A stretch of DNA of 21,482 nt from a virus. The notes beneath the pieces are model-generated. The model was not told the origin of the DNA. It was given only the letters and a program-made list of their open reading frames with translations, and ran no database searches. This document shows, piece after piece, positions 9,701-14,476 of the stretch. How positions within the stretch are numbered: the stretch's first letter is position 1; the number at the start of each line of letters is the position of its first letter. Location of the stretch: positions 1 to 21,482 of IMG/VR virus record IMGVR_UViG_3300047550_001098, one strand, 5' to 3'. Made by a program: the position numbers and the translations under genes.

Positions 9701-9944
9701 TTGGTGTATCTGCACTAGTACGCTTAAATGTAGGTGTACCAAAAATACTGGCTAATTCGCGTTGGCTGGTAATACCATAGGCTTTGCCTGCATTTGCCTT
9801 GGTGGTACCTGGGGCAATCAAACCATTGATTGTTTTATCTTGCGCTGTGGCCACTACTACAAAAGGTATAGTGCCTACAGATGACGGTAAGTATTGACTT
9901 TCGTCAATTACTGTAATCTCTACTCCTGGGGATACTAGAGCCAT
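6702..9944 (-). CDS. 18: Tail sheath protein gp18, greatly enlarged (1080 aa)
   Basis: This is the contractile sheath subunit. The N-terminus MALVSPGVEITVIDESQYLP and the C-terminal 370 residues (from about 710, YPRGTLLFNTRR through ITRDQIKQLIESLLNDL and VEFIYIPIRLKNPG) carry the sheath family signature, including the terminal handshake-type segments. T4 gp18 has 659 residues; the extra 400 or so lie in the middle. That insertion contains two threonine/valine/alanine-rich beta domains (about 215-320 and 425-530) and at least four short modules with a glycine, an aromatic start and a terminal tryptophan: GDYAVVV near 178, GSVWMKT near 344, DGKLWYYS near 565 and SGDLWLDT near 630. They probably project from the tail surface. 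AAGGAAG precedes the ATG. The gene has its own late box and terminator. Confidence 0.93.
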   Translation of the reverse strand: MALVSPGVEITVIDESQYLPSSVGTIPFVVVATAQDKTINGLIAPGTTKANAGKAYGITSQRELASIFGTPTFKRTSADTPIHGDELNEYGLMAAYSALGLGNRSWVMRADIDLNDLTGTVVRPTGSPANGVQWLDTAASKFGIFEFDESIIAPDVPFVEKTPTVLSAVPTSSVGSKGDYAVVVAAGNNNYVYKKLSDNNWAQLGTATWANDIASVVTANSGAVAFASGAVPAATFTINGTTVTITGVTTMAGVATAISTAAITGITARVVNDRLEILVATTATGQQAVIVDGAGVSYGGATVTPLNILGITAGTYRRAAVTHGNYAAQPDWRRTAATPRPSGSVWMKTSATGGGANLVFKRYNSTTKSWATLATPIYADGFEALYSMDATNGGKSIAANSIFVKYNPANDGAVGFKFYYQRVAGITKIVGTTTTPTFTNGSTFTITASVPGSVTPVVSGTVTISGTTAASFVSAVTAAGVANVTAAVESSGAVSISHTAGGLIKLTYGTGATNPISAAGLTAATGSNDYIVALTSTTDDAGLSNFAEATYTFTSAEPYTNPADGKLWYYSDPTAVDIMIHDGTNGWRGYRNVASDARGYNLTNTDANGVIVAASQPTYQSDGTTLVASGDLWLDTSDLENYPRLYRYDSVTKEWSLIDNADRITQNGIIFADARWGTAITTDPITAALPSTVTLLSSNYTDPDVPDYRLYPRGTLLFNTRRSGYNVKKFVVNYFNATAFPAAGLASSYNAWVTQIGYNADSHPMMGHYSQRNEIIQAMRAAIDSNLDLREEGYNFNLLTAPGYPELVQKLVELNNDRANTGFIIGDTPMTMPATINSIVSYEADQTISNPYMALYYPSALTTDLSGNEIAVPASHMMLRTYMYNDNVAYPWFAPAGTRRGLIDNALAIGYIDANSGTFIRTGINNNLRDTLYENRMNPVTLINGVGIVAYGQKTRAPSISGSGTSLDRVNVARLVNYLRTVLRGVANQFLFEPNDKITRDQIKQLIESLLNDLIAKRGLYDYLVVCDESNNTSDRIARNELYVDIAIEPMKAVEFIYIPIRLKNPGTIDGSAAAATIGA

Positions 9945-9976
9945 TTTTTCTTCCTTATAATTAGGTCATAAAACCA

Positions 9977-10005
9977 TTGCTAATATTTATCGGCTAGTTT
10001 AAAAT
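9977..10005 (+). promoter_or_regulatory. Candidate sigma70-type promoter for the zinc-ribbon gene
   Basis: TTGCTA-N17-TAAAAT matches the sigma70 hexamers at four and five of six positions, with ideal spacing. It ends four nt before an ATG at 10010, similar to the promoters of gene 1 and the 83-aa gene. It overlaps the leftward gene 18 late box, so the two may be used at different times. This is weaker than the two perfect promoters. Confidence 0.4.
9984..9991 (-). promoter_or_regulatory. Late promoter, GATAAATA, upstream of gene 18
   Basis: GATAAATATTAGC on the minus strand lies 39 nt before the gp18 ATG, with an AAGGAAG Shine-Dalgarno in between. The leader is longer than at the other late genes of the window. 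The box overlaps the spacer of a candidate rightward promoter for the zinc-ribbon gene. Confidence 0.7.
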
Positions 10006-10054
10006 CTCCATGGTTAGCGGTCCTTTCCAAGGTCCTTTGGAAATAAATATCAGC

Positions 10055-10396
10055 ATGAAAAGATCCGTTTGTCCACAGTGTCGAATACACCCAGTGGCTA
10101 TCAATTACTACAGAAACAACAAGGTACACTTTCGTACGCTATGCACGCCTTGTATACATAAACGTCGTCGCACAGCAGTAAACGTACCTGGATGGCTAAG
10201 AGCTGGGTATAAAAAACGTGATCGCTGTGAACGCTGTAATTTTAAATTTAAGTTAACCGAACAGAGTACGGTATACTATGTGGATGGCAACACCGGCAAC
10301 AACCATTGGAGTAATTTACGTACTATTTGTGCTAATTGTAGCTTCGATGTGAAAGATTCACACTGGAGACCTAGTCGGATTCTGCCAGATTCTTAA
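10055..10396 (+). CDS. Small double zinc-ribbon protein with HNH-like C-terminus, 113 aa
   Basis: Four CxxC pairs (C6/C9, C30/C33, C58/C61, C92/C95) are spaced as two zinc-binding ribbons joined by a basic PGWLRAGYKKR linker. The segment YYVDGNTGNNHWSNLRTICANC (split here: YYVDGNTGNN, then HWSNLRTICANC) resembles the metal-finger half of HNH nucleases, but the catalytic His pair is not obvious, so nuclease activity is doubtful. I recall similar proteins in cyanophage-like T4 relatives without a proven function. Nucleic-acid binding is likely. I chose ATG 10055 (MKRSVCPQC) because it begins the recognisable domain. An in-frame ATG at 10010 would add 15 residues and lies right after a promoter-like -10. 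Its 3' end overlaps gene 1, read from the other strand, by 26 bases. Confidence 0.8.
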   Translation: MKRSVCPQCRIHPVAINYYRNNKVHFRTLCTPCIHKRRRTAVNVPGWLRAGYKKRDRCERCNFKFKLTEQSTVYYVDGNTGNNHWSNLRTICANCSFDVKDSHWRPSRILPDS

Positions 10397-11024
10397 CTTG
10401 TTGATATAAGCGTTCAATAGTACTGTTATTGTCTATAACAAGATCAAACTTAGTGGCTAACCATGCCCACTCGCTGGGATGGATGTCGGGATACCGTGAT
10501 GCCATATCACGTTGTTGATCAGAGATAATCCACTGTTCGTCTTCGGCAGTATGCACAGTCTGTAGCGCACAGGCCAGCCATTCCGGCGGTGCTCCACGTT
10601 CTACACAAACCAGTTTACCGCCAGAACGCCTAATAGCTGCCACTTCATTAGGAAAACGCACATCCGAAATCACAATATTGTCTGTGCTTTTCAGTAACTT
10701 GTTCTCTAAACTAGCTACCCAGATGTCATCATGAAAGCCGTGACGACACACATCAGTGCCCCAGTACTGTAGGATCCAGCGTGGTGTAAGCGTGGGCATT
10801 TTTAGCCGTTCGGCCCACCAAGGATCTACTTGTTCACGCCAGGCACGACTAGCAGCAGTACGCCCTTCCAGCATGATTCTGTCCCAGCCAAACACACAGG
10901 CCACAGCATCTTTGAGAGTGTTAGCAAAACTTTCACGGCGATACCCATGATAATTAACCAAGTAATCGGCCACAGTGTCTTTGCCTGAGCCAATGAATCC
11001 TGATATACCAATGATTTTAGCCAT
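10371..11024 (-). CDS. 1: Deoxynucleoside monophosphate kinase gp1
   Basis: The enzyme phosphorylates dNMPs to dNDPs for phage DNA synthesis, in the cytoplasm. The P-loop GFIGSGKDT at residues 9-17, with K15, is intact. IVISDVRFPNEVAAIRRSGGKLVCV is the characteristic middle strand and switch of the T4 gp1 family, and the helical HPSEWAWLATKFDLVIDNN segment is near the end. The length of 217 aa is close to T4 gp1 (241). It is a metabolic, normally early gene set inside the late cluster. A perfect TTGACA-N17-TATAAT promoter lies just upstream, with only seven nt between the -10 and the ATG and no Shine-Dalgarno. Late read-through from gene 13 could also reach it. Confidence 0.93.
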   Translation of the reverse strand: MAKIIGISGFIGSGKDTVADYLVNYHGYRRESFANTLKDAVACVFGWDRIMLEGRTAASRAWREQVDPWWAERLKMPTLTPRWILQYWGTDVCRHGFHDDIWVASLENKLLKSTDNIVISDVRFPNEVAAIRRSGGKLVCVERGAPPEWLACALQTVHTAEDEQWIISDQQRDMASRYPDIHPSEWAWLATKFDLVIDNNSTIERLYQQVKNLAESD

Positions 11025-11031
11025 AGCTATA

Positions 11032-11060
11032 ATTATAGCCAGGGCTCGAAGTTATGTCAA
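11032..11060 (-). promoter_or_regulatory. Perfect sigma70 promoter for gene 1
   Basis: TTGACA (11055-11060) and TATAAT (11032-11037) on the minus strand are separated by exactly 17 nt. The -10 is followed by seven nt and then the ATG of gene 1, so the transcript should be leaderless or nearly so. The -10 lies in a 14-nt palindrome, GCTATAATTATAGC. Confidence 0.9.
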
Positions 11061-11808: not shown

Positions 11809-12939
11809 TTATCCTATTACCCAAGTCAATGGTGTGGAGTTATCCACGTAAGTCTTAAGATCTTCTTCTAATTTCTGCATTTCTTCTTTGGCCTCAGCAA
11901 TCAAGGCTGTCCCGTTAAGTGTGGTTCCGCCTTGCGGCCCAGCTATACTGCCAAATTTACTACGAGCTTCTCCTAATATAAACTTGGCAAAAGCGTAAGC
12001 ATAATCTTGAATCCATGGAAATACAAAATTGTCATTTAGCAACATGACATCAGGTTTGTAGTTGTAAATTTGTAGTAGCACAGTTTCTGCAGGATCATCA
12101 CTGACTGGACTGCTAATCTGTGTTCTTGATAATTCATATCCTGTTACCGAACTAGCTGCCAGCACTGAACTAGCAGTCACAGTAACAGTTTTTGTTCCAG
12201 GATTGTGGGAAACTATTGAGTATGAACCATTATATCCCGCAATAGGGCAGTTACCAATGGTCAATGAATTACCAACTTCTACTGGCCATGTTTGTGTGTA
12301 TACCAATGTTATAGTGCTACCAATAGCAGTGCCACTGGAAGTCAATGATGCCAATTGAACATATTTTCTGCCTGCGTCAGGGATTTTACGCACCAAAGTC
12401 AGCTTTTTGGTAACTGAGTTATACTGGAAATTCATATATCCGCCAAACAGTTTCATGGCCTGCTCTTGATAGTGCGTGAACAATTCATAATTAGCCAATC
12501 CACCTACACGCCCAGCTACCAACATGTAGGTATTAAGGTATCCCGAAGCAAAAGGCTCGAATTGGCTGGCTGTGGTGCCTGTGACCGATCCTATGCCGCG
12601 TCTGAACACTTGACGCACCTGCATGATTTCTGCAGGTAAAATATATTCTTGTGTTTCTGGCAATAGCTCTAGGAAAGCATAGCTTTCTTCCACAGAATTG
12701 CTGGCACGTTGACGATACTTGATCAAGGCCTGTTTAATGGCAAGATTGTAGTGTTCGGAATCAAGCTCAACATCTACAATACCATCAGCTAAACGCAGAC
12801 GTATATAGTCTATGATGTCATTTCTACGACTGTCCAAGGGATCAAGTCCAGTGCTTGAAAACGCAATGGGACCTGGTCCACCGAGGCTATCAGCAATTAA
12901 GTTTTGTTTAGCATTTAAACCGGTTTTTAATGTGGCCAT
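11809..12939 (-). CDS. 13: Neck protein gp13, with an inserted beta domain
   Basis: gp13 forms the ring that closes the filled head and receives the tail. The first 100 residues show the adaptor-like helical start (DIIDYIRLRLADGIVDVELDS, then the AIKQALIKYRQRA helix). The C-terminus, FPWIQDYAYAFAKFILGEAR followed by GPQGGTTLNG and an EAKEEMQKLEEDL helix, closely parallels the end of T4 gp13 as I remember it. Length is 376 against 309 in T4. The excess is a threonine/serine/valine-rich Ig-like insertion at about 193-273. The start has an AACAGGAC Shine-Dalgarno that lies in one arm of a perfect inverted repeat containing the late promoter. gp14 and gp15 are encoded nearby on the other strand, preserving the 13-14-15 grouping. 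Confidence 0.88.
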   Translation of the reverse strand: MATLKTGLNAKQNLIADSLGGPGPIAFSSTGLDPLDSRRNDIIDYIRLRLADGIVDVELDSEHYNLAIKQALIKYRQRASNSVEESYAFLELLPETQEYILPAEIMQVRQVFRRGIGSVTGTTASQFEPFASGYLNTYMLVAGRVGGLANYELFTHYQEQAMKLFGGYMNFQYNSVTKKLTLVRKIPDAGRKYVQLASLTSSGTAIGSTITLVYTQTWPVEVGNSLTIGNCPIAGYNGSYSIVSHNPGTKTVTVTASSVLAASSVTGYELSRTQISSPVSDDPAETVLLQIYNYKPDVMLLNDNFVFPWIQDYAYAFAKFILGEARSKFGSIAGPQGGTTLNGTALIAEAKEEMQKLEEDLKTYVDNSTPLTWVIG

Positions 12940-12945
12940 AAAATA

Positions 12946-12973
12946 GTCCTGTTATGTATATTTATAACAGGAC
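12946..12973 (-). promoter_or_regulatory. Inverted repeat that can sequester the gene 13 ribosome-binding site
   Basis: On the minus strand GTCCTGTTAT and ATAACAGGAC form a perfect 10-bp stem around an 8-nt loop. The second arm includes the AGGAC Shine-Dalgarno of gene 13, six nt before its ATG. The late box occupies the end of the first arm and most of the loop. RNA started upstream would hold both arms, while RNA started at the late promoter should lack the first arm. Confidence 0.8.
12959..12966 (-). promoter_or_regulatory. T4-type late promoter, TATAAATA, upstream of gene 13
   Basis: An exact TATAAATA box followed by TACATAACAGGAC lies 19 nt before the ATG of gene 13. It should drive gene 13 and the two internal-protein genes, possibly continuing into gene 1. 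Confidence 0.85.
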
Positions 12974-12981
12974 CACCTAGA

Positions 12982-14163
12982 CTAGCCAACTCTGAGTAGT
13001 AGCGTGTCCTCTGATATTCTGCCATTAAGGCGCACTTCCACGGCCTTGATGTCCTTGATCCAGGTTCTTAGTGCTACTTTGCCAGCCTTGGCAAACTCCT
13101 TGAGTTGCTCGTCGGGACGACGCAGTGTTTTGGCCACACTACGGCTCTCATCGTAGCCAGTGATACTGGTACCGCGAACACCGAGCTCGCCCATGGCCTC
13201 AGCATGATAGCAGCCTAGTTTACGAGTCTTGGTGTTGTAGACCCATAGTGTGCTAGCACCAATGATGTCCACAGGATTAACACTGACCACTTTGAGTGCA
13301 CGATCTTCTTTGGCATACTTGAGCTTGGCCACTAGCTTTTCCTTGCTGGGTGCCTTACGCACTCGAGCCTTTTTAACTGCTTTCTTGACACCACGGTATT
13401 CCTCAATGCCAGCCAGCAGATCCGCAATAAACCCAAACATGCGTCTATAGTCTGCGGCGCGATAGTGGCGATATGCTTCCACTAACTGTGCATCCTCACG
13501 ATCCTGTGCTGCCATGAGCTCGGCACTGCGAGCCTGAAACACTGCTTCATAGCGTCCCAGTTGGCTTTGTGGCACACGATTGGCAGTGAGAAAGTCGTAG
13601 ATCTTAAATGACACCGACTGCTTTTGCAACACTTGATCGTAGATGCCCTCAATCTCACCAATCAGCTCAGCAGTGCGCTCTTGCAGTCTGTCCTGTATGG
13701 TAATCTTGCGTTCCTGCACTTGATCAGGACTTGCTATGACTTCCTCGCCGGTGTCGCCGCCGCGAGCAGCCAGATTTAAAGTGTAGTCAACTTGATCATG
13801 TATGTACTTGACATGCCGATCCAGCAAGGGCATGCCACGACGATGTGCCATAATCAAGCTACAGGGTGTCATCAGCACATAGCGATCAGCCACACGCTCA
13901 AAACGATCCAGAGTGGTTTTATTAAGCCGACTGTTACGACGCAGCCAGTCATTTAGATGTTTACGACACTGCTTGACCGAATAGTGATAGTTGTAGTACT
14001 GAAAGCTCTTACGCAAATGATGATCAAATGTTTCGGAATCGAATCCTAAAGCCCGCTCGGTGTCCCATTGTGGTTCTGGGCCTGTGGCTTTTTCTTCACT
14101 GGCCATTACACGAGCGCTGGGTTCTTTGCGTTTGGGTACTTTAATTCCCTTGATTTTGGCCAT
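12982..14163 (-). CDS. Conserved phage protein of unknown function, 393 aa
   Basis: I cannot assign a function. A lysine- and proline-rich start (to about 30) is followed by a helical region with FQYYNYHYSVKQCRKHLNDW (about 54-73), a coiled middle (160-260) and a basic AVKKARVRKAPSKEKLVAKLKY segment near 265-286. The last 100 residues form a distinct alpha/beta region: VSVNPVDIIGASTLWVYNTK, then RGTSITGYDE, then LKEFAKAGKVALRTWIKDIKAVEVRLNGR. I remember that C-terminal pattern from unnamed proteins of cyanophage- and pelagiphage-like T4 relatives. It starts 10 nt after the 83-aa gene with a TAGGA site overlapping that gene's stop, and shares its sigma70 promoter, suggesting early expression. 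Basic character hints at nucleic-acid binding, without proof. Confidence 0.85.
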   Translation of the reverse strand: MAKIKGIKVPKRKEPSARVMASEEKATGPEPQWDTERALGFDSETFDHHLRKSFQYYNYHYSVKQCRKHLNDWLRRNSRLNKTTLDRFERVADRYVLMTPCSLIMAHRRGMPLLDRHVKYIHDQVDYTLNLAARGGDTGEEVIASPDQVQERKITIQDRLQERTAELIGEIEGIYDQVLQKQSVSFKIYDFLTANRVPQSQLGRYEAVFQARSAELMAAQDREDAQLVEAYRHYRAADYRRMFGFIADLLAGIEEYRGVKKAVKKARVRKAPSKEKLVAKLKYAKEDRALKVVSVNPVDIIGASTLWVYNTKTRKLGCYHAEAMGELGVRGTSITGYDESRSVAKTLRRPDEQLKEFAKAGKVALRTWIKDIKAVEVRLNGRISEDTLLLRVG

Positions 14164-14173
14164 GTACTGGTTC

Positions 14174-14425
14174 CTAAGTTGACAATAGAGCTAGTGTAAC
14201 ATATTGATCTAAACTTGTCACGGACTCTGTGAACTTGTTGCGTAAATCCCACAGTCGGTGGCTGTCCCGCTGATTTCTACAATTCACCTGCTCTTGTGCC
14301 ACAGCACGACGCAGATTTTCGCAGTTTTTGTACATGCGTTTAAGATCCATTCTTACACGGCTGTTAGACATGGCGGCAATACGCTGTGGCAATTGCTCAT
14401 AGATTTCCATGATTTCCAAATCCAT
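14174..14425 (-). CDS. Small helical protein of unknown function, 83 aa, first gene of an early-type operon
   Basis: The protein is polar and predicted almost wholly helical (LEIMEIYEQLPQRIAAM, then VRMDLKRMYKNCENLRRAVAQEQ, then LWDLRNKFTESVTSLDQYVTLAL). No known domain is recognised. I chose the ATG at 14425 over the TTG at 14431. The TTG overlaps the -10 hexamer of the promoter and so would not be in the RNA. The ATG lies five nt beyond the -10, so translation is probably leaderless. It is followed by the 393-aa gene after 10 nt, and the two form one unit. Regulatory or adaptor roles are possible but nothing in the sequence decides. Confidence 0.72.
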   Translation of the reverse strand: MDLEIMEIYEQLPQRIAAMSNSRVRMDLKRMYKNCENLRRAVAQEQVNCRNQRDSHRLWDLRNKFTESVTSLDQYVTLALLST

Positions 14426-14430
14426 AGTCA

Positions 14431-14459
14431 ATTATATATGCTTTGTGCAAGAATGTCAA
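14431..14459 (-). promoter_or_regulatory. Perfect sigma70 promoter for the 83-aa/393-aa operon
   Basis: TTGACA (14454-14459) and TATAAT (14431-14436) on the minus strand are separated by exactly 17 nt. The ATG at 14425 lies five nt past the -10. The architecture is the same as at gene 1. It sits 10 nt from a divergent late box for gene 14. Confidence 0.9.
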
Positions 14460-14468
14460 CTCAGAATC

Positions 14469-14476
14469 CATAAATA
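14469..14476 (+). promoter_or_regulatory. Late promoter, CATAAATA, upstream of gene 14
   Basis: CATAAATACTAG differs from the T4 late consensus TATAAATACTAT only at the first and last bases. It lies 20 nt before the TTG start of gene 14, with the AGGAGA site in between. Confidence 0.75.

Follow-up and report, generated by a model that had tools for sequence, protein, structure and literature searches.

The window that we have analyzed is a viral record from IMG/VR of 21,482 bases, that is, a 21-kb fragment. T4-type structural genes are grouped in it, namely those coding for a gp13-like head-tail adaptor, the tail sheath and the tail tube, all recognized through PHROG. The gene whose control is considered here is gp13, coding for the head-tail adaptor Ad2 (neck protein, 376 aa), located on the minus strand at 11809..12939 (PHROG 211, E 5e-30) with its ATG start codon at 12939. 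The two ORFs downstream of gp13 had been labelled as internal-protein genes in an earlier reading made from the letters of the window (hereafter the sequence-only reading). This label remains unconfirmed, as Pfam gave no match for either of the two and PHROG none for the one tested. Since a search of cultured phages at the DNA level gave no matches for the window, relatives were sought by protein searches.

The gp13 leader reads, on the minus strand, ...AGGTG GTCCTGTTAT AAATATAC ATAACAGGAC TATTTT ATG. It contains two perfectly complementary 10-base arms, the first (5') arm GTCCTGTTAT at 12973-12964 and the second (3') arm ATAACAGGAC at 12955-12946, separated by the 8 nt loop AAATATAC (12956..12963). 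Both arms are assigned from the sequence, and the first one also from the compensatory changes found in relatives (see below). An exact match to the T4-type late promoter box, TATAAATA, spans the first arm and the loop (12966-12959), and the Shine-Dalgarno (SD) of gp13, AGGA(C), is inside the second arm (12950-12946), both on the minus strand as well. The sequence-only reading had described a perfect 10-bp hairpin with an 8-nt loop, the box in the first arm plus the loop and the AGGAC SD in the second, and every one of these elements proved exact. Besides, the stem can be extended on the same strand by five more pairs, including G-U and A-U, between 12945-12941 and 12978-12974, reaching almost to the ATG.

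When the last base of the box is set as -6, the late 5' end is predicted at ~12953, within the second arm. The first arm is upstream of this predicted start and would thus be present in read-through RNA only. The computed cost of opening the SD was 11.6 kcal/mol in the read-through RNA versus 1.4 in the late RNA, as expected if the site is costly to open in the former and free in the latter. The folding energy of the leader was -27.1 kcal/mol versus -13.2 +/- 2.7 in shuffled sequences, none of which (0 of 300) was as low. Perfect 10-bp inverted repeats with loops of 3-20 bases appeared at two places in the window, whereas shuffled windows gave 0.25 matches on average. The number of TATAAATA boxes in the window was not significant by itself (2 found, 1.06 expected) and, as we read these data, the significance of the box comes from its position inside the hairpin and its conservation, not from its occurrence alone. 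Rfam had no matches in the window at the gathering score.

Upstream of gp13 on the same strand there is an operon with two ORFs of 83 and 393 aa, both of which were verified. The stop codon of the 393-aa gene (PHROG 11903; 12982..14163, minus strand) ends 8 nt short of the first arm of the hairpin. The 83-aa gene, first ORF of the operon (14174..14425, minus strand), gave a confident three-helix model and could truly start a few codons further on. Actually, its ATG (14425) falls at the start expected from the promoter (~14424), so that either its mRNA may lack a leader or its true start may be an internal Met, for instance that at 14410. Neither of the two proteins had a Pfam match. For the 393-aa one, AlphaFold2 gave a mediocre model (pLDDT 72, pTM 0.35) with no fold match at E <= 0.001; distant homologues of this protein occur in PA5oct, in Sinorhizobium phages and in a cyanophage.

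The sequence-only reading had claimed for this operon a perfect sigma70 promoter and no visible terminator before gp13, and both claims held: TTGACA-17-TATAAT is found at 14459-14431 on the minus strand, and the scan of the window detected no terminator-like site on that strand from the operon promoter to gp13. A further sigma70-like promoter, GTGACA-17-TACACT, whose -10 is preceded by TG, lies immediately upstream of the 393-aa gene (14193..14221, minus strand). The same arrangement is widespread. Near -295 of the 393-aa gene, most relatives carry a sigma70-type promoter with 9-12 of the 12 consensus bases (11 of 12 matches are reached in 5% of random 500-base pieces), and a second one at -52 to -62 is frequent, with perfect consensus in the loci L012, L028 and L090. 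In a 250-kb relative of L012 there were seven perfect sigma70 sites overall, two of them serving this operon. In 28 relatives the coding strand of the operon had no late box of the NATAAATA type, and homologues of the 393-aa protein are located near replication genes, RNaseH in phiN3 and the single-stranded DNA-binding protein in BUCT-ZZ01. We infer that the operon is early, a conclusion well supported by its promoters, the lack of late boxes and of a visible terminator, and the replication genes that neighbour its homologues.

The promoter of the operon is one of two placed back to back at 14431-14476, the minus strand carrying the sigma70 TTGACA-17-TATAAT and the plus strand a late-type box, CATAAATA, before a structural gene of PHROG 11591. 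The sequence TGTCAA (the reverse of TTGACA) directly ahead of this late box is retained in many relatives. The sole other perfect TTGACA-17-TATAAT of the window, at 11032-11060, precedes the dNMP kinase gene (10371-11024). With perfect sites at the operon and at the dNMP kinase, gp13 sits between two sigma70 units.

Two protein searches provided 68 loci with gp13 and 29 with the upstream 393-aa gene. A total of 58 gp13 leaders, from environmental contigs and cultured phages and including those of the RaK2-like jumbo phages, were clustered into 39 at <70% ungapped identity. These leaders share hardly more than TAAATA and the Shine-Dalgarno, and nearly all of them fold alike. Examples with changed letters are TCCCCAGG-TAAATATATTA-TCTGGGGA and GGTATCCTGTT...TAAATA...AACAGGATACC, while in some lineages (L052, L054) the promoter box doubles as the first arm, as in CATAAATAC-TAAAAATAAAAG-GTATTTATG. 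In 35 of the 39 clustered leaders at least 6 of 10 bases of the SD region were paired with RNA that precedes the late start predicted for them. Opening the SD had a median cost over the 39 clusters of 13.3 kcal/mol in read-through RNA versus 1.3 in late RNA, and it was at least 5 kcal/mol in 37 of them. The summed energy of the arms paired with their own partners was -618 kcal/mol, versus -321 +/- 20 when they were re-paired at random between phages, and none of 10,000 permutations came close to the value of the own partners. We have also aligned 21 leaders of the short-loop type to look at covariation. TAAATA was invariant, standard pairs occupied 95.7% of the cells (32-46% in slid versions), both sides had changed at 7 of the 10 pairs (32 cells), and one pair was G-U in 12 of the 21 leaders. 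Hence the pairing is maintained by compensatory changes while the box persists, in line with the covariation that the sequence-only reading had proposed to look for, and the G-U pairs, frequent at one position, are what would be expected of RNA. The gp13 proteins of the phages sharing the hairpin are only about 40% identical.

A hairpin at the end of an early operon could be mainly the intrinsic terminator of that operon, overlapping the late promoter by chance. Among the 39 leaders, 18 have at least five T in the 8 bases directly before the ATG, and a T run follows the stem in XaC1, GAP32, 121Q and others. However, the remaining 21 have no T run, and these include some of the strongest hairpins (L007, L017, L024); besides, a terminator has no need for an SD within its second arm. 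The T-rich tail of the window leader is interrupted by A and base-paired to the first arm, and the terminator scan did not list the gp13 hairpin. We therefore consider this explanation unlikely as the main role of the element, although with T-rich tails in about half of the leaders termination might reinforce the block in some of the phages.

In the RaK2-like phages (fENko-Kae01, Munch, Hallingskeid, pEa_SNUABM_12, GAP32, CBB, XbC2, Kaldavass, XaC1, 121Q and RaK2) the gp13 hairpin was present, with different letters, in all those checked, behind other genes of the same strand. In 121Q (L109:2486-2501) and RaK2 (L110:2486-2501) the annotated gp13 start falls inside the hairpin, and the same layout appears once gp13 is read from an ATG located 12-15 nt downstream. 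Since both the similarity and the other RaK2-like leaders point to this ATG, it is probably the true start in these two phages. A second structural gene presents the same pattern. In the 9 RaK2-like phages scored, the tail sheath gene (gp18) comes directly after the dNMP kinase gene and its leader forms the same hairpin (9/9), with values of 11-16 kcal/mol. Over 50-kb stretches of fENko and GAP32, gp13 and gp18 were clear outliers in the cost of opening the SD, and GAP32 had two further weaker cases near 9-10 kcal/mol. PA5oct has a terminator in front of gp18 and the hairpin is absent; the literature search found no usable paper with timing data for this phage. In the clade of the window there was neither a strong hairpin at gp18 nor a visible terminator after the dNMP kinase. 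An HNH-like ORF (10010-10396) lies on the opposite strand between the dNMP kinase and the tail sheath of the window (9944-10396). When the gene before gp13 is divergent, the SD pairing was 0.44 in Atu_ph07 and 0.74 in Phosso, a set that, together with Vibrio 2.275.O, is too small and too ambiguous to serve as a control.

The variety of genes found in front of gp13 bears on a different explanation, translational coupling, by which gp13 translation would need the ribosomes finishing the 393-aa gene and both proteins would be made together early. The stop codon only 8 nt ahead of the first arm fits this idea, and a similarly short spacing is apparent in several relatives. Nevertheless, the upstream gene varies by lineage (the 393-aa family, a peptidyl-tRNA-hydrolase-like protein in RaK2-like phages, and others), the spacing at gp18 is longer (about 22 nt), and the late box inside the hairpin is left unexplained, all of which makes coupling improbable. 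Perfect palindromes overlapping promoters can be operators, as this one might be for a dimeric regulator, unless the repeat served as an RNase III or 3'-end protection element, but we give such roles very little credence given that the letters of the arms are wholly different between phages with the pairing kept, that the box itself is the first arm in L052 and L054, that the second arm tracks the Shine-Dalgarno and that the G-U pairs (12/21 at one pair) point to RNA. All of these readings, operator, RNase III, terminator and coupling, rank below a switch of the T4 type.

To assess how specific the hairpin is, we gathered 80 clustered leaders with a TAAATA box from the same contigs. Opening the SD cost at least 8 kcal/mol in 26 of 31 gp13 leaders versus none of the 49 others (p ~1e-11), which include those of the sheath, the tube and the divergent PHROG 11591 gene, indicating that the hairpin is not a general part of late promoters. 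Within the window it is likewise true, as had been noticed, that no boxed gene other than gp13 has it. Regarding the promoter class, a relative of the gp55-type late sigma was found in 3 of 5 large related records. The late-box counts in whole relatives were not clearly above a reversed-pattern control, and for this reason the presence of a box alone was not taken as evidence. In phage CBB, ATAAATA is the predicted late motif, a gp55-like sigma was found and the neck protein was detected in virions (PMC5259590); the word hairpin is not in the text of that paper.

There are exceptions. Three lineages, L025, L028 and PA5oct, are without a strong gp13 hairpin. L025 (5905) and L028 (3764) keep the box, gp13 and the homologue of the 393-aa gene upstream and have no SD hairpin; the RNA of L028 folds into a hairpin ahead of the Shine-Dalgarno. 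In PA5oct the gp13 hairpin is weak. Loss of the pairing with the promoter kept, which the sequence-only reading had named as evidence against itself, is thus found in L025 and L028, weakly in PA5oct, and not elsewhere. Besides, only 8 nt lie between the stop of the 393-aa gene and the first arm, so that ribosomes terminating there might unfold the hairpin for a short time.

Our analysis indicates that the gp13 leader is a two-state switch set by the site where transcription starts, a reading to which we give a probability of about 0.85. RNA started at the sigma70-type promoters of the 83-aa/393-aa operon would hold both arms and fold, burying the gp13 Shine-Dalgarno, so that gp13 would not be translated early. 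The late gp55-type polymerase, once made, would start at TATAAATA inside the hairpin, and the resulting RNA, beginning at ~12953, would be free of the first arm and leave the ribosome site open. The early read-through RNA, its non-translation and the timing are what we infer from sequence, and the mechanism is most likely that of the T4 genes e and I-TevI. In large T4-related phages with gp55-type late promoters, a wider rule may follow gene order, not gene identity: a late virion gene that immediately follows an early operon would be silenced early, by a terminator or by a hairpin that embeds its promoter and buries the ribosome site, and the head-tail and sheath proteins would then be ones that must not be made early. 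The contrast at gp18 (hairpin in the RaK2-like phages, terminator in PA5oct, neither where an antisense gene intervenes) is of this kind, and to our judgement the rule stands about evenly between holding and failing. The hairpin itself provides a rule for correcting start codons, as for gp13 of 121Q and RaK2, and for predicting which units are early or late in metagenomic phages. The silencing of late genes that share RNA with early ones also becomes measurable in cultured phages growing on laboratory E. coli.

In T4, the ribosome site of the genes e, soc, 49 and I-TevI is buried in early RNA, and for gene e the late promoters are located in the DNA coding for the 5' strand of the hairpin, lysozyme synthesis being cut 100-fold (PMC3014915). 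Similar hairpins have been described for homing endonucleases, I-TevI/II/III and segB of T4 and mobE of Aeh1 (PMC2988022). The analogy with the hairpins of T4 early RNA drawn in the sequence-only reading is therefore documented and, since every sequence-level feature of the T4 cases is matched, we have filed the gp13 leader with them. The known T4 cases are few and mostly lysis or homing endonuclease genes. Within the open-access literature searched, finding this device at genes of the neck and the sheath, and so broadly, is apparently new.

As in T4 gene e, the late box lies in the DNA of the 5' strand, the early RNA would bury the ribosome site and the late RNA would be without the first arm. 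Unlike gene e, which codes for a lysis enzyme, the gene is here that of a virion neck protein, the sequence is different and apparently independent, and the phages that conserve the element are a far wider group; the T4 case was shown experimentally and ours is derived from sequence. T4 soc and gene 49 resemble gp13 in being late functions carried on early or middle polycistronic RNA with the ribosome site buried, but they are other genes, and the gp13 and gp18 cases are unreported in the literature found. With I-TevI/II/III, segB and mobE the leader shares a late or middle promoter placed so that the late RNA cannot make the hairpin, in front of a gene included in an early or middle transcript. 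Those are homing endonucleases of mobile elements, whereas here the same logic appears at essential virion genes, the core structural gene of the neck and, in the RaK2-like phages, also the tail sheath, and it has been kept by selection across phages as divergent as their gp13 proteins.
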